Shown here: positions 3,705-15,769 of the stretch, one piece after another
Numbering within the stretch: the stretch's first letter is position 1
Layout of the letters: the number at the start of each line of letters is the position of its first letter
From: Candidatus Poseidoniaceae archaeon
GTDB lineage: Archaea; Thermoplasmatota; Poseidoniia; Poseidoniales; Poseidoniaceae
Reading direction: 5' to 3'
Length of the DNA: 42,559 nt
Assembly (NCBI GenBank): GCA_030750665.1
Contig: JASMHR010000005.1
Span: 1-42,559 of the forward strand
Notes under the pieces: generated by a model
Database searches by the model: none
What the model was told of the DNA's origin: nothing
What the model saw: only the letters and a program-made list of their open reading frames with translations
Position numbers and translations under genes: made by a program

Positions 3705-5497
3705 TTACTCTGTAGCATGCTTTGCCACAAGCGATTTCCCTTCCCTTCCAACTTGTTTGCAAGTTCAGGTTCACAGGCTATCTTGAATGAGGTCTCCATC
3801 ATGACCCCTTGTCTGTTGATGGTCAGACTTGCATCTGTATCCTGTCTTCCGAGAAGAACAGAATTGAGTTCGGATTTATTCCTGACTCTGAGCCCATCAA
3901 GGGAAATCAACTCATCATCGGGCAGAAGCGAATCTCGCAAGGGGGAATCAGGGAGGAATCCTTGTACGTAAAGCCCACCTTTCTTTGTTGACAGATTCAT
4001 CCCCAACCATCCTTGGGGCTTCTTGTCATCATCTTCAGGAGAGATGAATTCAAGGCCCAGCGAACTCATTGCTTTGTTTAGATCAGGTCGAACATTCTCC
4101 TTGGTCAACCTATCGAGCATCGTTCCCATTCTTGCACCTCCATGCAACGAAGTCAAACCCTTTCTGATATCCGAGTGTCTGACCCCCAACGTCTCGAGTT
4201 CAGGTGAATCGAGTCCATGTCGTTTCCACAATAGTGCGAACAGATTCTCAAGTCCAGTCTGGCCTTTGCTGCGACGCCTCAGTTCGGCGTCTAGGCACAT
4301 CATCACCATCTCTCCTTCAAGATAGTATGAGATGGTGCTCTCACGAGAATATGTATGTGGACGGTAGAGATGTATCCATGCCTCATGGCTGGATGTCGCC
4401 AGTGATTGATGTTCATTCCCTCTGCCATTGTTGAATCGCTTCATCTTGCGTTCGAGGTCTTTGCGCCAATCTTTCTCGCTCCAGACTCCACTCTTCACAC
4501 AGATGATGTCTCCTAGCCAGGAAGTACCACCTTCAAACCACCATAGGAGTTCGCTGTGGACTTCTTTAGAGAGGTCATAATCGATGAATTCTCGCGGTCG
4601 TAATCGTTTGACATTCCATAGATGAAGATACTCGTGCGAGAGCAGGCTCACCAAATCTCTCCATGCATCATCCTGACCACTTTGGATAGCGATTCGTGGT
4701 ACCATGCTTGTTTGTGAGCGAAGATGTTCAAGGCCGCCTCTTGGACCCCCAGTCAGGTGGAGGATGGTCCAATACTCAGTGAATGGTAAAGGCCCGAAAA
4801 GAGCGACGAATTCATTCACCAGAATCTCCATTGCATCTTGAATCCTTTCGATGGCCTGCTCAGGTACTACGTAACCACCAGCATCCCAGACCCTGAGATG
4901 GTGCATCGCTCCAGACATCATTCTACTGTGAGTGGCTTCTGCATTGGCTTCGATGACGCCATCATACAATTCATCCACATCAGGAGGTTGCCAGGTTCGT
5001 TCATTTCCTACTGTCCATACCTTGTGCTTCGGTGGGCTTGCTGGGTGGTCATTGAGTTGACTTGCAGCACTCCAGCCCTCAGGCATCATCAGAGTAACCG
5101 TACAATCATCTCCTCCATCCCAACCTCTTTTTGGCATCATCCAAGTGAAGGTGGGGACCAGATGTAGGTGGCTAGCATCCATATGATTGCTGCGAACGGT
5201 TAGGTCAGGGCAGAGTAATTTGTAGTTGACCAAGATATCTTTCATGCCACCTTTTGGAGGTTTGATTCGATATCCATGAGTCCCGTTCCTGACGATTTTC
5301 GCTCCTCCACTTACAGTGATATCGCGAACATGCCTCAATGGTTCTCTGATGAGATATGAACCAGGGACCCAACGCGGCATCTCGATATCGATCGTGGAGG
5401 AGAAGTTCCCTTGGAGGAGAAGGTGTACATCAAGCAGCCTAGAGGCTGCCTCAAGGCAAGAGGCGCGCTGGTGAATCCTCACTTTGGACATGCTCAA
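3692..5497 (-). CDS. M61 family (glycyl aminopeptidase-like) metallopeptidase with C-terminal PDZ-like region
   Basis: LLSHEYLHLWNVKRLRPREF zinc motif, ELLWWFEGGTSWLGD, PDZ-like GWLGMNLSTKKGGLYVQGFLPDSPLRDSLLPDDELISLDGLRV. Confidence 0.9.
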   Translation of the reverse strand: MSMSKVRIHQRASCLEAASRLLDVHLLLQGNFSSTIDIEMPRWVPGSYLIREPLRHVRDITVSGGAKIVRNGTHGYRIKPPKGGMKDILVNYKLLCPDLTVRSNHMDASHLHLVPTFTWMMPKRGWDGGDDCTVTLMMPEGWSAASQLNDHPASPPKHKVWTVGNERTWQPPDVDELYDGVIEANAEATHSRMMSGAMHHLRVWDAGGYVVPEQAIERIQDAMEILVNEFVALFGPLPFTEYWTILHLTGGPRGGLEHLRSQTSMVPRIAIQSGQDDAWRDLVSLLSHEYLHLWNVKRLRPREFIDYDLSKEVHSELLWWFEGGTSWLGDIICVKSGVWSEKDWRKDLERKMKRFNNGRGNEHQSLATSSHEAWIHLYRPHTYSRESTISYYLEGEMVMMCLDAELRRRSKGQTGLENLFALLWKRHGLDSPELETLGVRHSDIRKGLTSLHGGARMGTMLDRLTKENVRPDLNKAMSSLGLEFISPEDDDKKPQGWLGMNLSTKKGGLYVQGFLPDSPLRDSLLPDDELISLDGLRVRNKSELNSVLLGRQDTDASLTINRQGVMMETSFKIACEPELANKLEGKGNRLWQSMLQSNQSS

Positions 5498-5536
5498 CGT
5501 AACCTCTGAGTTTGAGGCAGACGATAGAACATCCCA

Positions 5537-6613
5537 TCATGGAATCAAGTCTTCATGTCCAGATGAGAACCCAGTCGCACCTGAATCATCATCGGGTGCT
5601 CCGGGTTGTTGCAAGCGTATGTTGAACAACTGCGACAACAGTGGCCACAGCCCCATCAGCCAATCTTTTGCCTCATCCAGCATGACTAGGAGTGGATGTT
5701 CCTCAGGTTCTTCTCCTTCATCATCAAGATGTTCTTTCGTATCATCAAAAAACATCAATTCTGGAGGCGGCAGGTCGGGTGGCAAGGTTCTGAGGTCAGC
5801 GACCAGATTCTCAATATTCAGAATCAGTTCCTCTTCAATGATGTCATAGAGTCTGACAAAGGAAGCGGCTTCTTCCAACATGTCTGCCAAGGTGTCAGGA
5901 CTTGGGATTCCGGGTTCACTGTCTTTGATGTCGACAGGGCCAAAAACAACACTCCCCAATTCTGTATCAAACAATTCAAGACCTTGTTTCTCTCGTTTCA
6001 CCAATCGTTGATTTACTTCTCCACCGAGTGGAGCAACGATGAATCCACCTTCTGACAGAGATTCTTCCAACCATACAGGGATTCGCTTCAGTGAACCACT
6101 GATCAGAACACGATTCAGTTCTGTGGGCAGGTCTTCAGGTGCTTCAGCAAGAGTGGTTATCAATCTGATATTGCAGTTCTTGAGACTGTGAAGACGTTCC
6201 TCAACGTGTTCCAATACTGCTTCTGAAGGGTCGAAAACAGTCACAGTTCCTTCATCTCCAACAACTGCAGAGATAAGCGCCGTGAAATATCCACCTTTTG
6301 CTCCTATGATGACCACATCTTGGCCTTCTGAAAGTTCGAGATGAGACAGCAATGTAGCGACCATGTGTGGTGCCGATATGGTCTTGACACCTCCAGAAGG
6401 GGTTTCGAGGAAAACCAGTGGGCGGTCGTGAAAGAATGGAGTGGGGTCGAAATCGCTGTAGGACCTGACATCGACCTGCATCATCGCTTCTTCGATGATG
6501 CCGTTCATTGGAATCCCGGCATTCTGCAATCTTTCCAGCAGAGACTGCATCGGGTCCATGAGCACTGCAAGAGGATGGTCCCCTTTCAACACTGTCATCT
6601 TTGGAAGTCTCAT
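5537..6613 (-). CDS. Protein-L-isoaspartate O-methyltransferase-like (PCMT family) with ~150-aa C-terminal extension
   Basis: TISAPHMVATLLSHLELSEGQDVVIIGAKGGYFTALISAVVGDEGTVTVFDPS; SAM-binding fold pattern. Confidence 0.72.
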   Translation of the reverse strand: MRLPKMTVLKGDHPLAVLMDPMQSLLERLQNAGIPMNGIIEEAMMQVDVRSYSDFDPTPFFHDRPLVFLETPSGGVKTISAPHMVATLLSHLELSEGQDVVIIGAKGGYFTALISAVVGDEGTVTVFDPSEAVLEHVEERLHSLKNCNIRLITTLAEAPEDLPTELNRVLISGSLKRIPVWLEESLSEGGFIVAPLGGEVNQRLVKREKQGLELFDTELGSVVFGPVDIKDSEPGIPSPDTLADMLEEAASFVRLYDIIEEELILNIENLVADLRTLPPDLPPPELMFFDDTKEHLDDEGEEPEEHPLLVMLDEAKDWLMGLWPLLSQLFNIRLQQPGAPDDDSGATGFSSGHEDLIP

Positions 6614-7404
6614 CTGCTATGGGTAATCAATAACCAAGTTAGAAATAATCCGGCAGCAGCTCCAACGGTACCGCTGAGTGTATTTGCTTGAGCCACATCC
6701 ATGAAGCCTATCGCTCCCATCCCTCCCAAAGGCACTCCAAGTGCGGTCATCTTGAGTATCATTTCTCTTTTTGGCAGGGGAGGTTTTCTCGGTCTCAAAG
6801 TGATTGTACTGCGCTTCTTCCAAATATGGAAATCAGCAAGTATCTCAGGTGTGGAGAGCATAGTCAGGACCGTGGTTCTGAGCCTTGGGATTCTGCTGTT
6901 TGAATCACCACGGCCGCTGATGAAAGTCATTCTTCCAACCTTGTGTCTAACGCTGATACATATCTGCAGTGCAGCCGCTGCACTATCCAACTCCATATCG
7001 TGCAGATCCACGCCTACTCCCAGACCGCGGTCACTCAGGTGAGTCATCACATTCCATTGCCGCGCCCCAGTCGTGATGTCGTCACTGGCCTTTGCTTGAA
7101 TGGGCCCGAGGGTTCGACGAAGAAAGGACAGGCCTTGTTCGACAGGAATCTCAACTCTTATTCTTCGTCCAAGGAAGTTGTAAGAGAGGAAACTGCTCAG
7201 GAAAATCAATCCCCATGCTGCTCCAGCAATCTTGAATCCAAGAATGAAACCCCCTGTGAATGCATGTGCATATATTACTACGATATATGTTAGAACACCG
7301 GTATATGTTGCAAGGATCAGAGCTGTTGCAAAGGCCTGTCCAAAAGTCAGTTGACGCCGTTCCCAGGTTGGTCCCACAACCGACTGATTGGAGGTTTGAC
7401 TCAT
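6610..7404 (-). CDS. Membrane protein of unknown function
   Basis: 264-aa ORF with several hydrophobic segments near the N- and C-termini; 4-nt overlap with the downstream PCMT-like gene suggests coupling. Confidence 0.7.
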   Translation of the reverse strand: MSQTSNQSVVGPTWERRQLTFGQAFATALILATYTGVLTYIVVIYAHAFTGGFILGFKIAGAAWGLIFLSSFLSYNFLGRRIRVEIPVEQGLSFLRRTLGPIQAKASDDITTGARQWNVMTHLSDRGLGVGVDLHDMELDSAAAALQICISVRHKVGRMTFISGRGDSNSRIPRLRTTVLTMLSTPEILADFHIWKKRSTITLRPRKPPLPKREMILKMTALGVPLGGMGAIGFMDVAQANTLSGTVGAAAGLFLTWLLITHSR

Positions 7405-7504
7405 CTTCCTTCAATGAACCCGAGGTGGTTCGATGTATGATACCATTCATTGACAATCAGGGTAAATGCAGAAAAATGATTGTTTGAACCGAGTAGGGGC
7501 TACT

Positions 7505-8254
7505 ATGGTTGAGGACCCTGAACGCGAGCGCGCAGCAAAGGTTGGCAATTGGGTTTTGGGAGTTTCCCTTTTCTTCTTGATTTCATTCTTTTTCGCCCCG
7601 ATGACCCTCAAAGAAGGAAGTGTTCCAGAACTATCGGGAAGGGCGAATGCTTTCGATTATGCATACCATGAAGGGTGGGGCAGTTGGGGAAATGGAAATC
7701 ACAGTGGTGAAATTGGACACGATCAACCTTCCAAGGGGCTGTTCGCATGGTCAGAAGTCAACTTTTATGCAGGCTTCACTTATGCTTTTGGTGACCTCAA
7801 TTGCCACCAGAAACATGAACGGAGTTGGGAGCTTAATGGCAATCAGCTTCCTGTTTGTGCAAGAGATGTGGGGATATTCCTCGGTTTGGCAATCGGAGGT
7901 TGGATATTCTCTAGGTATGGAAAGAATCGATGGACAGTTACAGATTCTTTTCTATCAGTTTTCGGAGATTCAAGATTGGAACCGATATACTTGCGTGGAT
8001 TACGGAAGAGAGCGGCTTGGAGCATAGCGGCATTGGGCGTCATCCCTATCGGTATCGATGGTTTCACTCAGATGCTTACCTCATATGAATCAACCAATCC
8101 CATTCGTTTGCTGACTGGAGCAGCATTCGGAATCATGTTGGCAATTCTGTTCTCTGCGATGTTGTCCTCGCGTCCCAAGGATTACGAAGGTAGACCAGAA
8201 TTGGTCATTCTTCCCGCAGGTGCTCGTTTAGCCAGGTCTGTAGAGGAAGAATGA
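7505..8254 (+). CDS. DUF2085-like membrane protein
   Basis: CHQKHERSWELNGNQLPVCARDVGIFLGLAIGGW matches the CHQ...CaR(c/d)xGi layout; multiple TM segments; ATG at 7505 preferred over 7466. Confidence 0.72.
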   Translation: MVEDPERERAAKVGNWVLGVSLFFLISFFFAPMTLKEGSVPELSGRANAFDYAYHEGWGSWGNGNHSGEIGHDQPSKGLFAWSEVNFYAGFTYAFGDLNCHQKHERSWELNGNQLPVCARDVGIFLGLAIGGWIFSRYGKNRWTVTDSFLSVFGDSRLEPIYLRGLRKRAAWSIAALGVIPIGIDGFTQMLTSYESTNPIRLLTGAAFGIMLAILFSAMLSSRPKDYEGRPELVILPAGARLARSVEEE

Positions 8255-8289
8255 AGCAACATTTTCAGGCTTTCCCGTATCCATTCAAT

Positions 8290-9639
8290 TCATTTTGGAG
8301 GAGGAGTGCTCCACCATACCAGATATTCTTCAACACTACGAGGAACAGGGCAGCCAGAATATCCAGAAGTGAGCATTTGCAGGCGCGCAGTAGTTTCCTC
8401 AAGGAGCACATTTCTACTCTCTTCATCAAGACGTTCGCTTGAAAGAATCCATTTCATCGCCTCAGAAGTGTCAGAGCGGGGGTTCTTCCGTTTCCATTCG
8501 GCAAGATGTGATTGCATGGGCCAAAGAGCGAGAAAAAGCCTTCCCAGTCCTACCCATTCTGCACCGATCTTGAATGTAGGTGCATCTGAGAAGGGGACAT
8601 GTGCTTGTTGTCGATGTGTCCAGCCAATGGAGTCGAACCATTTGATCAATCGTTGTGAATGTCTTTGAGATACTGCTCTTACCGGACCAAGAGTGCGTCT
8701 CAAGGTCGGTATATCGGTGGTCGACATGAATGAAAGTGTTCCCATCAGTGACCAGACAGAGTGGTGGATGTACGAGCCAGCAACATCAGCGTTTCTTGCC
8801 TTCTTCACAACCCACGCTGCGTCAGCTTTGGACATCCAATCAGCAGGTGGGCAATCACCCAACCAATCTTCAACTAGAGAAGTCGATTCAATTGGCGAAC
8901 CAGGGAGTCTTTGTTGGGCTGCCAATCCCTTTACAAGGCGTCTGAGATGATGCCTATCTACAACTTGTGGGTCTACATTCAATGGTGGCGGCCTACTGTT
9001 GAGGAATCCACGCAATGCATTTGCTAATTCCTTGCGCAACTGAGTTTTGCTCCCTTCATTCAGTATCGGTCCAGCGATGGTGCATTTGTCGAAAGGTGGG
9101 GGGGCTGCTCCTTGTTGAGATAGCAATTCATGGAAGCCAGCCCGTATCTTGCTCTGCAATTCATTTGTCTCGAAGTATTCCTTTTTCTGAGAACTTCCCC
9201 TCAGTGTTCCCCTGTTTATTCTCTTCATCGCTAATTCTGGGTCACAATCGACCCATATCACCAAGTCTGGAACAGCGGCTGCCGAGTTCATTCTTGCGAC
9301 CTTTTCGTATCCCAGTTCACCGACACATCCTTGGTAAATTAGAGAGGAGTGGACGTTTCTGTCGCTGATGATCAATTCTCCACGATTCAAGCGAGGCAGT
9401 ATCCAAGTATGTGTATGGTCCAATCTATCCGCAGCGAACAAGGCCGCTTCTTGCAGCGGGGTCTGTCCACCTTCCTTGACCGCAGTCAATGCCAGACTTC
9501 CAATTGGACTGGAGCGTCGTGGTTCATGGGTCGGTGTCACCGCAGGGAAGGGAAAATCAGATGCGACTTCTTTGAGGATTCTGACCGCTTCACCTTTGCC
9601 AGAGCCATCGCCACCCTCGACGGCTATCAGGTACATCAC
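8290..9639 (-). CDS. tmk: dTMP kinase (thymidylate kinase) with long C-terminal extension
   Basis: MMYLIAVEGGDGSGKGEAVRIL, THEPRRSSPIG, AADRLDHTHTWILPRLNRGELIISDRNVHSSLIYQG, PDLVIWVDCDPELAMKRI; ~240 extra residues after the kinase domain. Confidence 0.82.
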   Translation of the reverse strand: MMYLIAVEGGDGSGKGEAVRILKEVASDFPFPAVTPTHEPRRSSPIGSLALTAVKEGGQTPLQEAALFAADRLDHTHTWILPRLNRGELIISDRNVHSSLIYQGCVGELGYEKVARMNSAAAVPDLVIWVDCDPELAMKRINRGTLRGSSQKKEYFETNELQSKIRAGFHELLSQQGAAPPPFDKCTIAGPILNEGSKTQLRKELANALRGFLNSRPPPLNVDPQVVDRHHLRRLVKGLAAQQRLPGSPIESTSLVEDWLGDCPPADWMSKADAAWVVKKARNADVAGSYIHHSVWSLMGTLSFMSTTDIPTLRRTLGPVRAVSQRHSQRLIKWFDSIGWTHRQQAHVPFSDAPTFKIGAEWVGLGRLFLALWPMQSHLAEWKRKNPRSDTSEAMKWILSSERLDEESRNVLLEETTARLQMLTSGYSGCPVPRSVEEYLVWWSTPPPK

Positions 9640-10448
9640 TGACCATCCCCATTCGAGGTCTTTTCATCGACCACGTAATCGGCGAATTGTCGCTTGGCCA
9701 TCATCAGCAATACCATGCCCATCAGGATTAGAATCGGGCCAAAGAAAATCAGTCCCCTGCTGCAAAGTGAAATTCCGGCTAGATATTGGGTTCTGCGGTA
9801 CCTTTTACCTCTCTTCGCTTCATGAGCGGCATACATTCCCACAAAGGCGGTCAAGATAGTGAAAACAGCGACCAGTGTGCTCACTGTCACCGCTCCTGCG
9901 AGAATGGAGTTCCGTTCCTCTTCAGTCTCTGAAAACAGACCACTGCCCTCTTTCATCGTCAATGGAGATTCGCCTGCTTGATCCGGAGTGAAAGTTCGTT
10001 CAATAGTGATGAAACCATCCTTCTCCGCCGTCAGCGTCAATCTCTTGATCGAGATTTCCACAAATCTGTAGAAGCCATTGCTATCGGTTGTGGTATTGTC
10101 CATCTGGGCTCCAGTGATTGCATCCACAAGCACTAATTCAACACCTTCCAATCCTTTTCCTGTCTGATTGTGCAATGCATAGCCGCTAACATCCACATTA
10201 TCATTCGATTTGAAGAGTGATGAACTCAGAAGGTCAGATGGATTGTTGGACAGGAGCATGAAACCGGTCAGCAGACCAAGAATGCTTCCGACCACGATGA
10301 GGACTGCTGCCGCAGTTCTTGTCAGGTCCCGAGTAGCGTATTCATCACGCAACTCCATCAGTCGTTCAATTCGCTTTTCTCTCTCGCTGCGTTTGTGCCA
10401 CACACTGAGTAGACCCTTGCCTTTGGAGTCATCATCATTCGTCATCAT
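9636..10448 (-). CDS. Membrane protein with carboxypeptidase regulatory-like (beta-sandwich) domain
   Basis: DVSGYALHNQTGKGLEGVELVLVDAITGAQMDNTTTDSNGFYRFVEI...LTAEKDGFITIERTF; TM segments on both sides; internal ATG at 10448 minimises overlap with the upstream gene. Confidence 0.72.
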   Translation of the reverse strand: MMTNDDDSKGKGLLSVWHKRSEREKRIERLMELRDEYATRDLTRTAAAVLIVVGSILGLLTGFMLLSNNPSDLLSSSLFKSNDNVDVSGYALHNQTGKGLEGVELVLVDAITGAQMDNTTTDSNGFYRFVEISIKRLTLTAEKDGFITIERTFTPDQAGESPLTMKEGSGLFSETEEERNSILAGAVTVSTLVAVFTILTAFVGMYAAHEAKRGKRYRRTQYLAGISLCSRGLIFFGPILILMGMVLLMMAKRQFADYVVDEKTSNGDGQ

Positions 10449-11481
10449 CAAACACGTCCTCGAGGTTCGGCGCCCTCTTCTTGTCTGCTGGCAGAGCGCG
10501 CCACACCTTGAAGATTCCAATCACCGCGCATGATAGAGCAACTCCTGTCAAGGCGCTGTAGAACAGGTATATCGACAAAGGAGCATCAGTTTCACATTCA
10601 TCATCCAAAGTGCAGGACTGGGGCTTATCAGTTCCAGTTCCTTGCTCAACATCCATTGTCCCATCTGTATTGTTTTCCTGAATTGAGGCTTCAACCAGTT
10701 CCACTTCGTACATCAATGGCCAATTTTTTCCAGTTAACCACATGCTTCCATTTCCATCGATGGAGATGCCGTTCAGTTCCCCCCATGCTCCCTTTTTCAG
10801 TTCACTTGCATTGACGACCATATCCACTTCTCCTGAATCGGAGTCGATTCGAATGATGTCATCGGAAAACCAAATGTTGGCCCAGATACTGCTGCTGTTG
10901 CACTCAAGTTCATTCAGATTCACGATAGCAGTTCCATCCAGAGTGACATTGATAGTTCTAATTATTGAGAAATCCACAGGGTCTCTGAAGTTGATCACGT
11001 CACTACCATCAGACATCACAAGAGCGGTACCATTGTTGCACAAACCCCATCCTTCACCTTGGTAGGAGAAGTTTCCAATCAGAGTGAAGTCGGATAGGTT
11101 CCAGATCAGAGCAGTGTTGTTTTGCCATGTCAGTTGTACAAGTGTATCCCCTACCAACGCCAATCCTTCGCCGAAATATTTGGCATCAAGATTGGTAGAA
11201 CGATTCACTGTACCATTTGGAAACACTTCTCTGATGGTGGATTCTCCCAGCAGGCCCGTACTCTCGTAGAACATTCCTTGATGCCATAGGAGGCCTTGTG
11301 TGAAGGCACCGCTATCGTGACTGATATTTGCTACTACTTCAACTTCCATTTGGCTGACTGTGGAGGCCTCTTGGCCATCTCCAGCAACATTCAACATTGC
11401 CGAGGTGAAAAGCATGACTGCAATCAATTGACTGACACGTTTGCAGTATGCCGTCTTGAGCATGTCTGATGCCTGCTCCAC
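10435..11481 (-). CDS. Glutaminyl-peptide cyclotransferase (glutamine cyclotransferase family), membrane anchored
   Basis: FTQGLLWHQGMFYESTGLLGESTIREV, YFGEGLALVGDTLVQLTWQNN, GEGWGLCNNGTALVMSDGS, LNELECNSSSIWANIWFSDDIIRID, ELNGISIDGNGSMWLTGKNWPLMYEVEL; N-terminal signal and C-terminal TM. Confidence 0.88.
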   Translation of the reverse strand: MEQASDMLKTAYCKRVSQLIAVMLFTSAMLNVAGDGQEASTVSQMEVEVVANISHDSGAFTQGLLWHQGMFYESTGLLGESTIREVFPNGTVNRSTNLDAKYFGEGLALVGDTLVQLTWQNNTALIWNLSDFTLIGNFSYQGEGWGLCNNGTALVMSDGSDVINFRDPVDFSIIRTINVTLDGTAIVNLNELECNSSSIWANIWFSDDIIRIDSDSGEVDMVVNASELKKGAWGELNGISIDGNGSMWLTGKNWPLMYEVELVEASIQENNTDGTMDVEQGTGTDKPQSCTLDDECETDAPLSIYLFYSALTGVALSCAVIGIFKVWRALPADKKRAPNLEDVFDDDE

Positions 11482-11517
11482 CGAGCCTTAAATACCTCAT
11501 TCAAGGTGGTCATTCAC

Positions 11518-11534
11518 GTGACGCGTAGCGTCAC
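11518..11534 (+). promoter_or_regulatory. Perfect hairpin immediately upstream of the metallopeptidase start codon
   Basis: GTGACGC-GTA-GCGTCAC, 5 nt before the GTG start at 11540; TATA-like CCTTAAATACC lies upstream around 11486-11496. Confidence 0.45.
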
Positions 11535-11539
11535 CGTGG

Positions 11540-12607
11540 GTGATTTCTCTGACAACAAAGAATAATGGAAGATTTGGCATTCCAACCGCATTGATTCTTT
11601 TGCTCGTATTCAGCTCTTGGGGGCCGGTGGCGTCAGCGGATGATGGAGTTGATTCTGAGGCGCGGCCAGAGTACGTTCCCCGCGGCACTTGGACAACATC
11701 TTTTGATGACTTCATTCCATCCACTGGTAAGCCGTACATCCTCTTTGAGGAGGACCAACCCGTCTATTCTGCCACTGGCTATCTGAAGCAGGCATGGTGG
11801 GCAGAAGGAAGTCCCGGCGCTGAAGAAGCATCGATGCGTCAGACCTCTGGCAGAGCGGCCAAAGCATGTAATCGGCATTTGGAAGGAGACACCACCACTG
11901 TTCCGGGATATGGTGGCGGAACGGTAGGAGTCACGGTCGAGAGAGCGACTAATAGTGTAGCATTCATGGTTCAGGATGGATTATCATTATCTTCAACGGT
12001 TCTTTCTAATTGGGAGTCTGACTGGGATAACACGATTTATCCAATATTGACCACATACTTCGGCAAGGATCAAGGAAATGGCATTCCTGAACCTCCTGAC
12101 GTAGATGGAAATTGCCAGATTCAGGTTGCTATCATCTCAGGGGATGGTGCGTATGGAACGGGTGGATATTTCAACCCAGGTCTGGCTCAATATAGAGAGA
12201 TAATCTTCGTTGATCACGCCGATGCTTCATTGTCATGGAGCAAAGTCATTCTAGCGCATGAATTGCAGCATTTGTTGCACAATGCTGCTGATTCCCAAGA
12301 GAATCTGTGGATCGACGAAGGTGCTGCTGATATGGCTGCATACCTTTGTTTTGGGGCCAGCAGTACACTGACTGGGCACTCCAATGCCTGGACACAAGAT
12401 AGTGGAATAAGCGTGCGCTGGTGGAACCAGAGAATTGCAGATTATGGCGGCGGTTTCATCTTCTTGTTGTGGATGGCTGACCACCTTGGTGGAGGGCCAG
12501 CAATCAGGCAATTGGTTGCAAATACACAGACCGGTGCGGCAGGAATCCTGACTCTTGCTCAAACTCCCCCTCACACCGCGGGATTTATTCTTGGCACCAC
12601 GTTTTAA
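11540..12607 (+). CDS. Secreted HExxH metallopeptidase, N-terminal part (truncated by in-frame TAA; continues at 12611)
   Basis: Signal peptide GIPTALILLLVFSSWGPVASA; VILAHELQHLLHNAADSQENLWIDEGAADMAAYLCFG; stop TAA 12605-12607 in the same frame as the next ORF. Confidence 0.82.
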   Translation: MISLTTKNNGRFGIPTALILLLVFSSWGPVASADDGVDSEARPEYVPRGTWTTSFDDFIPSTGKPYILFEEDQPVYSATGYLKQAWWAEGSPGAEEASMRQTSGRAAKACNRHLEGDTTTVPGYGGGTVGVTVERATNSVAFMVQDGLSLSSTVLSNWESDWDNTIYPILTTYFGKDQGNGIPEPPDVDGNCQIQVAIISGDGAYGTGGYFNPGLAQYREIIFVDHADASLSWSKVILAHELQHLLHNAADSQENLWIDEGAADMAAYLCFGASSTLTGHSNAWTQDSGISVRWWNQRIADYGGGFIFLLWMADHLGGGPAIRQLVANTQTGAAGILTLAQTPPHTAGFILGTTF

Positions 12608-12610
12608 GAG

Positions 12611-15600
12611 GTGTTTGCAAATTTCACATTTGCAGCGACTCTGGATACTTCAAGTGGAATCCATGGGTTATCGAATATTGCAATGACGGACCTTTGTAGC
12701 GGTTCTGCATTCTGCAAAATACAGCCAGCGGCTACGAATAATGATTGGACCTCGATGTGGGAATCCAAATCCAACACCATCGAAGGTTGGGGAGTTCAGG
12801 TCTTCAAGTTTGAACCGGGCAGTTCTCCTGCTGCTCCCTTGACCATAAGATTGACCGCCGATGCAACTGGAATGGAAGGGAGGTTGCTCTCTCGAGCCAC
12901 CGCAGATGGTCTTTATTCAATCGAGGAACTTTCATTCAGCAATATGGTGGCCACTGCCATGGTTCCAGGATTTGGCAACATCACCGATGAGGTCCATGTC
13001 ATCGTTTGGTATGGAAGCAATCTGGGAGATTGTGACTATACCTCATGCGGAGCAACATACCCAACAGCGCTTCTCGATATTGAGGCCGCTCGCATCACAT
13101 CACCCGCCAGTCTAGCCCTTGGTTCAACGTTGATGTCTGACAGAGACAACGATGGTGATGATGATACCATGGCTTTGCCCTTCAGCGTCACTTCAAATGC
13201 GTTCTTTGAGGATCTCAATATCATTGCAAGCGCTATCGATAGCACCGGTCAAACAGTGGACACTATGACCACGGGAATCGAGGCCGGAGGAGGTGTTCCT
13301 TCACCGGGAGTCATCTATTGGACTCCACATACTACCGATGATTATACGATTTCATTGGTGATGAAGGACCTGCTTGGCGATATCATCGATAGTTCAGTTT
13401 CAAGTAGTCAGGAAGTCTTCAACATGCAACCATTGCCCAATGCTTCAGTCGATACTAATGCCACCTTGACTTGGCTCCCTATCCAATTCAGCGGTTCAGG
13501 CACGGATTATTGGGGATTATCGGACGACATCAGCACACTTCCTCATGATGATGAGCCGACCGCCTATCTGTGGGATTTTGGTGACGGTAACGTCTCCACC
13601 TTGAAATCACCTTATCGTGGCTACCGAGACGAAGGAGTATACTTCGCCAATTTGACTGTACAGGATCAAGGAGGGGCATGGAGTCAGATATATCCGAATC
13701 TGATTATTGTTGCAGATATTCTATCTCCTATCATCAAGGTCCACGATGGTGCCGGTAATGAAGTGGTTTCAAATGATGATATTGAGGTGTTCACAGATCA
13801 AAGGATTCAGTTCTCCACTTTGCAGACCATTGACAATGTGCCCAATGAGAATATCGAGTTCAATTGGGATTGGGGAGATGGAGAGACTGAAGGAGGAGTG
13901 GGACATACTGTGGTCAGTCACGAATGGAGTGAAGGTGGAAACGGTAATGGAAATGCCCATCAGGTCATGATAACAGCATTCGATGGAAAGAACACAGGTT
14001 ACTTCAATTTCACTGTCAATGTCAAGAATAGATTGCCGAGGATGATCTTTGATGAAGCATTGGTGGTGGATACCTACACCTCTTTGCCGATGCCGATTCT
14101 GTACACTGATGACGATGGAGAACTTGTGAGTATAGATTGGCTATTCGTAGGAGGGGTTGCTCTGAACGAAGCCAACGTTGACCGCGACAGCGATTTTTCC
14201 TCTACCAGTAGCAACGAATGGCAACCGATGGTGGCTTGGAATACTCCTGGGGACAAGACTGTACAAGTGACCGCCACAGATGATGATGGAGGCCAGTCTT
14301 CCGTTTCATTGACAGTTCTAGTCAAGAATCAGTTGCCAGTTGCTGATGTTGACACAAGAGAACCGGTGACCCTTGGTGCCAGAGTCGTCGATTTCCGCCA
14401 AGAGGATGCCACTGTAGATATGATATACACTTTCGATGGAAGCCACAGTTTTGACCCAGATGGTTCCCTTCCCGATTCATCTATTCTGTCATTTGCGTGG
14501 TATTTTGAGGATGGAACAACCTCCAGCAAGTCTCTGGTCTCATATGGCTTCAGCACTCCTGGGCAGCATTCAGTGACGCTCATTGTGACCGACGAGTATG
14601 GCCAGGCTTCCGCTAATCGCACATTGAACATTCAGGTGATGAATCCGGTACCAGTGATCGAGGTCCAGATTCTTGAGGCATGGAGCAGTGGAGAATTAGT
14701 GAACATTGAGACACCTCGTGGTGATGGTTTCACACCAGATAATTATTCACGCACATTCGATGATGCCAATCGTACTCATGCATCAGTTAGTACTTTGCTG
14801 TATTTTGATTCCAGTGGAACCAGAGATGGCGACGCAGTATTCGCTAATACCCACACCCCATTCAACAGCAACAGCAGTGACTGGAATGGATTGGTTGAGT
14901 ACATCTGGGATTTTGGAGATGGTAGTCCTCATTCGAAGGAGAGTCACCCTTGGCATTCCTACTCATCTTCAGGGACTTATATCGTGAGTCTAACTGTGAG
15001 GGATGCCTTTGAGACAGGTGACACGATGAGCATGTTGTTCACCATCATCGTCGATTCTCCTCCCGAGTCTGATGGAATCATGGAGGCTACCGAGATAATA
15101 GTCGATGAATTGGCGATATTCCATGTTGATGCCAGCGATGCTGAGTCAAGCAGGAATTACGACATCTATCGCGACAACAATGTTGATGATGGCTCTAACA
15201 ATGACCATGACCATATCATTCCAAAGAGTTTGAAGATAATGTGGGAGTTGGATGATACCATTGATGAAAATGAAGACTCTGATTTCGCTAATGATTGGAT
15301 ATTCAGCAATGATGGAGAGTCTGCAACTAGAATCACTCACATCTTTGACCATTCAGGCGAAGTCACAATCAGGGTACAGGTCTGTGATGGAATGGGAAGC
15401 TGTGTCCAAGATTCAATATTGATCCAGCCTGCTGAAGGCCCGGAGAAGACTCCGACTTTGTCTGATTTCAATTGGCAGGATGCCAAGGGTTGGATGTCAG
15501 ATGCGGGGGGTGAATCCGCTTTCGTTCTAGGATTGATATTCCTTGTTCTCATCTTAGGATGGCTGGTGATGCGCACTCCTGTTGGTTTGGATGAAGAGGA

Positions 15601-15769
15601 AGCAGCAGAAGCCGCTGAAGCATATGATGTCCAGAATGTTGAGGCTGAAGGTGGAGTTCTAGGAATGGACCAGCATGAGCCACCACCCAAACCACGGATT
15701 CTCTCCAAAGATGATCGGAGAAGTAATGATTCAGGATATGTCAGACCAGTCCGCGCCAGAAAGCGCTGA
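12611..15769 (+). CDS. C-terminal continuation of the metallopeptidase: multiple PKD domains and C-terminal TM anchor
   Basis: Same reading frame as 11540-12607; PKD-like motifs PTAYLWDFGDGNVSTLKSPYRGYRDEGVYFANLTV, VEYIWDFGDGSPHSKESHPWHSYSSSGTYIVSLTV; C-terminal TM FVLGLIFLVLILGWLVM; no signal peptide of its own. Confidence 0.85.
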   Translation: MFANFTFAATLDTSSGIHGLSNIAMTDLCSGSAFCKIQPAATNNDWTSMWESKSNTIEGWGVQVFKFEPGSSPAAPLTIRLTADATGMEGRLLSRATADGLYSIEELSFSNMVATAMVPGFGNITDEVHVIVWYGSNLGDCDYTSCGATYPTALLDIEAARITSPASLALGSTLMSDRDNDGDDDTMALPFSVTSNAFFEDLNIIASAIDSTGQTVDTMTTGIEAGGGVPSPGVIYWTPHTTDDYTISLVMKDLLGDIIDSSVSSSQEVFNMQPLPNASVDTNATLTWLPIQFSGSGTDYWGLSDDISTLPHDDEPTAYLWDFGDGNVSTLKSPYRGYRDEGVYFANLTVQDQGGAWSQIYPNLIIVADILSPIIKVHDGAGNEVVSNDDIEVFTDQRIQFSTLQTIDNVPNENIEFNWDWGDGETEGGVGHTVVSHEWSEGGNGNGNAHQVMITAFDGKNTGYFNFTVNVKNRLPRMIFDEALVVDTYTSLPMPILYTDDDGELVSIDWLFVGGVALNEANVDRDSDFSSTSSNEWQPMVAWNTPGDKTVQVTATDDDGGQSSVSLTVLVKNQLPVADVDTREPVTLGARVVDFRQEDATVDMIYTFDGSHSFDPDGSLPDSSILSFAWYFEDGTTSSKSLVSYGFSTPGQHSVTLIVTDEYGQASANRTLNIQVMNPVPVIEVQILEAWSSGELVNIETPRGDGFTPDNYSRTFDDANRTHASVSTLLYFDSSGTRDGDAVFANTHTPFNSNSSDWNGLVEYIWDFGDGSPHSKESHPWHSYSSSGTYIVSLTVRDAFETGDTMSMLFTIIVDSPPESDGIMEATEIIVDELAIFHVDASDAESSRNYDIYRDNNVDDGSNNDHDHIIPKSLKIMWELDDTIDENEDSDFANDWIFSNDGESATRITHIFDHSGEVTIRVQVCDGMGSCVQDSILIQPAEGPEKTPTLSDFNWQDAKGWMSDAGGESAFVLGLIFLVLILGWLVMRTPVGLDEEEAAEAAEAYDVQNVEAEGGVLGMDQHEPPPKPRILSKDDRRSNDSGYVRPVRARKR

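Follow-up and report, generated by a model that had tools for sequence, protein, structure and literature searches.

A TAA codon confined to one draft genome interrupts a predicted M30-like secreted peptidase gene conserved across the Poseidoniales

The window, a stretch of 42,559 nucleotides, is contig C101 of the Poseidoniales (Marine Group II) genome G000, which comprises 1.70 Mb in 145 contigs and is 71% complete. Two ORFs, at 11540-12607 and 12611-15769, share one frame and are parted by a single TAA, at the coordinates given by an earlier sequence-only reading. The first starts at GTG 11540, encodes 355 amino acids and is closed by the TAA at 12605-12607. The codons GAG GTG follow directly, with the frame unchanged and open as far as the TGA at 15767-15769, so that the read-through translation has 1,409 positions and a single interruption. 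The second ORF can be called mechanically from GTG 12611. The features of the locus are listed in Table 1.

Table 1. Features along the interrupted gene, with positions in the window.
Feature	Position	Strand	Basis
N-terminal ORF: start, signal-peptide-like segment and most of the M30-like zinc peptidase domain	11540-12607	+	ends at TAA
Signal-peptide-like N-terminus, residues 1-33, ...TALILLLVFSSWGPVASA	11540-11638	+	read from translation
HELQH zinc-binding/catalytic motif, residues 240-244	12257-12271	+	translation; ortholog alignment A1
Glu260 of WIDEG, probable third zinc ligand	12317-12319	+	invariant in A1; aligned to lugdulysin WLNE
Tyr302, aligned to lugdulysin catalytic Tyr315	12443-12445	+	invariant in A1 as Y288
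In-frame TAA, codon 356, start of last catalytic-domain helix; sense codon in all relatives read	12605-12607	+	
Second ORF, rest of one gene: last catalytic helix, beta-sandwich region, PKD domains, C-terminal hydrophobic anchor	12611-15769	+	
Top-scoring PKD domain, one of three stretches	14405-14638	+	PF18911, E=8.5e-46
C-terminal hydrophobic segment FVLGLIFLVLILGWLVM, probable membrane anchor	15521-15571	+	read from translation

The gene is transcribed divergently from a neighbour on the reverse strand (10435-11481). The region between them, 11455-11534, is far better conserved than the genes, identity being 97.5% in L063 (80 bp) and 100% in L064 (52 bp) where the flanking sequence has about 70%; this conservation was observed in the same genus only. 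It contains CCTTAAATACC, possibly a TATA element common to both directions.

The distribution of protein parts agrees with the sequence-only reading: the signal-peptide-like N-terminus and HELQH lie in the first ORF, and the PKD domains and C-terminal hydrophobic segment in the second, whose N-terminus is not hydrophobic and which has no signal peptide of its own. The peptidase part matches no Pfam family at its cut-off. A profile of 36 orthologs, when compared with lugdulysin (PDB 7bb8), the M30 zinc metallopeptidase of Staphylococcus lugdunensis, gave a match with E=1.5e-12 over positions 92-366. H226, E227, H230 and Y288 are invariant in alignment A1 and aligned with lugdulysin E242 and Y315; the HExxH motif, the downstream Glu and the catalytic Tyr of the two proteins align, although overall identity is low, at about 20%. 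In a fold search with an AlphaFold model (mean pLDDT 70) of the protein from L063, where the gene is intact, 7bb8 was the top PDB match (E=2.1e-10, TM 0.59 on target). The sequence relationship across the catalytic domain, the HExxH motif with its catalytic Tyr, and the fold all point to family M30, and on these grounds the orthologous gene is predicted to encode an M30 (hyicolysin/lugdulysin)-like peptidase. Unlike lugdulysin, the archaeal protein is extended by a long beta-sandwich, PKD domains and a membrane anchor, and the copy in the window is cut off inside the catalytic domain. The intact product is best described as a putative M30-like zinc peptidase that is secreted and anchored in the membrane, and its gene is conserved throughout the Poseidoniales. 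In the literature, a search for lugdulysin gave nothing but unrelated uses of the string M30.

The sequence-only reading had placed the break between the peptidase and a PKD/anchor half; this proved incorrect. The HExxH motif and the catalytic Tyr are both upstream of the TAA, but the lugdulysin profile match runs past it into a helix with an invariant Asn-Phe. In the L063 model the last catalytic helix comprises residues 341-354 and the TAA maps to residue 342, while the beta-sandwich begins only at about residue 384. The first ORF is thus an incomplete peptidase domain, and the break is not at a domain boundary.

We then consider the junction in other genomes. When each half was searched separately, the gene was present in 57 of 58 relatives, and no stop was found inside either half in the matches from these 57. 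Scanning GTDB genomes, with one genome per species, yielded 80 loci; the named relatives are archaea of the Poseidoniales (Marine Group II). An open frame crosses the junction in 79 of them, 74 of the ORFs have both their ends, and the TAA site is free of stops in all 80. The one locus that is not spanned, L136, has frameshifts at other places in the gene. An order-wide search found matches in 276 of 293 genomes, and among the matches listed the stop occurs only in the genome of the window. Five of the 80 loci (AG-/AH- names) look like single-cell genomes, and the intact state therefore rests on more than metagenome assemblies. The intact orthologs (for example L062, L063 and L064) have the same domain order as the window gene and are unbroken wherever their contigs extend across the junction; most of the full-length copies have about 1,370-1,450 codons. 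Orthologs from the same genus also have the same neighbouring genes, with 69-94% identity to the gene halves. Because both parts match one unbroken ORF in relatives, the adjacency of the two ORFs is beyond chance; one ancestral gene has been broken by an in-frame TAA, as the sequence-only reading supposed, and the outcome that it named as contrary, orthologs consistently present as two genes, was looked for in the relatives and did not occur. No other copy of the junction was found in a pattern scan of viral contigs or in a phage collection.

At the TAA site, members of the genus and of one neighbouring group have Glu, whereas more distant loci have Asp, Ser, Gly, Ile, Asn, Val or Arg. Four relatives from the same genus have GAG at this site. 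The TAA is therefore two bases away from the genus codon, and not the single base change that had been suggested.

The ortholog at L136 (locus 5369-9533) contains several frameshifts, seen in this genome only, which are probably sequence errors.

Constraint was examined on both sides of the TAA. Relative to the closest relative, G001, dN/dS is 0.048 upstream and 0.108 downstream; a control pair of genomes from the same genus gave 0.143 and 0.099. When changes were polarised with G003, 28 amino-acid and 73 synonymous changes fell on the window branch, compared with 38 and 76 on that of G001, so there is no excess of amino-acid changes on the window branch (p=0.46). The 1,053 codons downstream of the TAA contain no second stop; had the second part evolved neutrally ever since the split from G001, about 29-37 would be expected. 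Either, therefore, the TAA arose within about the last tenth of the branch from that split, a limit that uses the upper bound of three events, or it is unreal. The gene resembles a pseudogene in that its orthologs are intact and the interruption is confined to one lineage, but dN/dS, the branch test and the stop count reveal neither relaxed constraint nor further decay, and any inactivation must therefore be very recent. An old pseudogene is rejected for the lack of decay.

The sequence around the stop is unusual in one respect. Of 15 changes specific to the window at sites invariant in the genus, 4 lie within codons 345-364 (P about 0.02): N345H, N346T, the stop itself and I364F, at 12569-12633. 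Several of these require two base changes within one codon. The cluster may represent chance, a local mutation event or a poor local consensus, and hints that the sequence is locally unreliable.

A survey of 1.06 Mb of G000 found 62 pairs of ORFs in the same frame with coding-like composition on both sides. Most resemble neighbouring genes in which a start lies just past the stop. Ten with less obvious starts were scanned, and no Pfam domain is clearly split by the stop in any of these; one of the ten, L195, contained nothing recognisable. The survey is coarse, in that proteins without a known domain would escape it. A reference-based survey against G015 matched too few genes (42) to be informative, and its three in-frame stops are apparently in antisense ORFs. 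The terminators of 588 long ORFs in the 1.06 Mb are TGA in 493, TAA in 51 and TAG in 44; in G000, TAA is uncommon but normal as a terminator. General recoding of TAA was considered and rejected on this usage and on the absence of a second domain-splitting stop.

We consider that the locus holds a single gene with one very recent nonsense mutation, present in this genome only, and we put the probability of this reading at roughly 0.55. If the TAA is real, translation would stop at codon 356. The exported fragment would keep the HExxH motif and the catalytic Tyr and would lack the last catalytic helix and the whole anchor; it would probably be misfolded or lost. The second part has no export signal. 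Given these deficiencies in both parts, the allele would most likely mean that the sampled strain has recently lost the function, and the TAA would then exist in the living population.

The strongest rival attributes the TAA to an error of consensus, assembly or low coverage in this metagenome-assembled genome, with the gene intact in living cells. We regard this as a serious possibility, although somewhat the less probable. It is consistent with the draft state of the genome, with constraint that is normal on both sides of the TAA, and with the cluster of odd substitutions nearby; moreover, easy loss would not be expected of a gene that almost all genomes of the order possess. Against this, the rest of the frame is clean over 1,409 codons, and an error would have to produce two base differences from the genus codon, a distance that counts against a nonsense mutation as well. 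The 1.06 Mb survey found no other stop that clearly splits a known domain, which suggests that gross sequence errors are uncommon here. Sporadic nonsense alleles and consensus errors in draft metagenome-assembled genomes likewise present as a single genome-specific lesion in a gene that is otherwise constrained, and the frameshifts in L136 are comparable; the window gene is distinctive only in the small cluster of substitutions around its TAA. What is seen here is either a recent mutation of an ordinary sort or an error in the sequence, and calls for no new mechanism.

A real gene fission, in which the second ORF is translated from GTG 12611 by reinitiation soon after the TAA, is very improbable. 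The GTG lies one codon past the stop, but relatives have one ORF, the break falls on the first residues of a catalytic-domain helix, the second part has PKD domains and an anchor but lacks an export signal, and a scan for promoter-like sites near the junction, which covered bacterial promoters only, found none. Two genuine genes are rejected, since the relatives are single ORFs.

Least probable of all is programmed or tolerated readthrough that yields the peptidase in two forms, one short and secreted, the other long and anchored, and equally so its variant in which a lineage-specific stop is tolerated through partial readthrough and frees some soluble peptidase beside the anchored form: the frame is open and constrained on both sides of the TAA, but every relative read has a sense codon at the site, so that there is no conserved readthrough element, with the stop conserved in 0 of 80 loci and seen only in G000 among the matches listed; the RNA near the TAA folds scarcely better than shuffled sequences (z-score -1.16), which is no sign of a stimulatory structure; the short product would lack part of the catalytic domain; the 1.06 Mb survey gave no second case; and TAA is an ordinary terminator here (51 of 588 long ORFs). 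Readthrough is thus rejected on the comparative evidence and the lack of RNA structure; among the options that the sequence-only reading offered, recent nonsense mutation and sequencing error remain live and programmed readthrough is unsupported.

For annotation, we propose that the two ORFs be entered as a single gene with an interruption, and that the second should not be taken as an independent protein. The M30-like secreted peptidase is found in nearly all Poseidoniales genomes searched, yet its catalytic domain lies below the Pfam cut-off. Because no Pfam model reaches its cut-off for this domain, Pfam-based surveys of extracellular peptidases in the Poseidoniales (e.g., PMC6336850) may overlook the M30-like peptidase.
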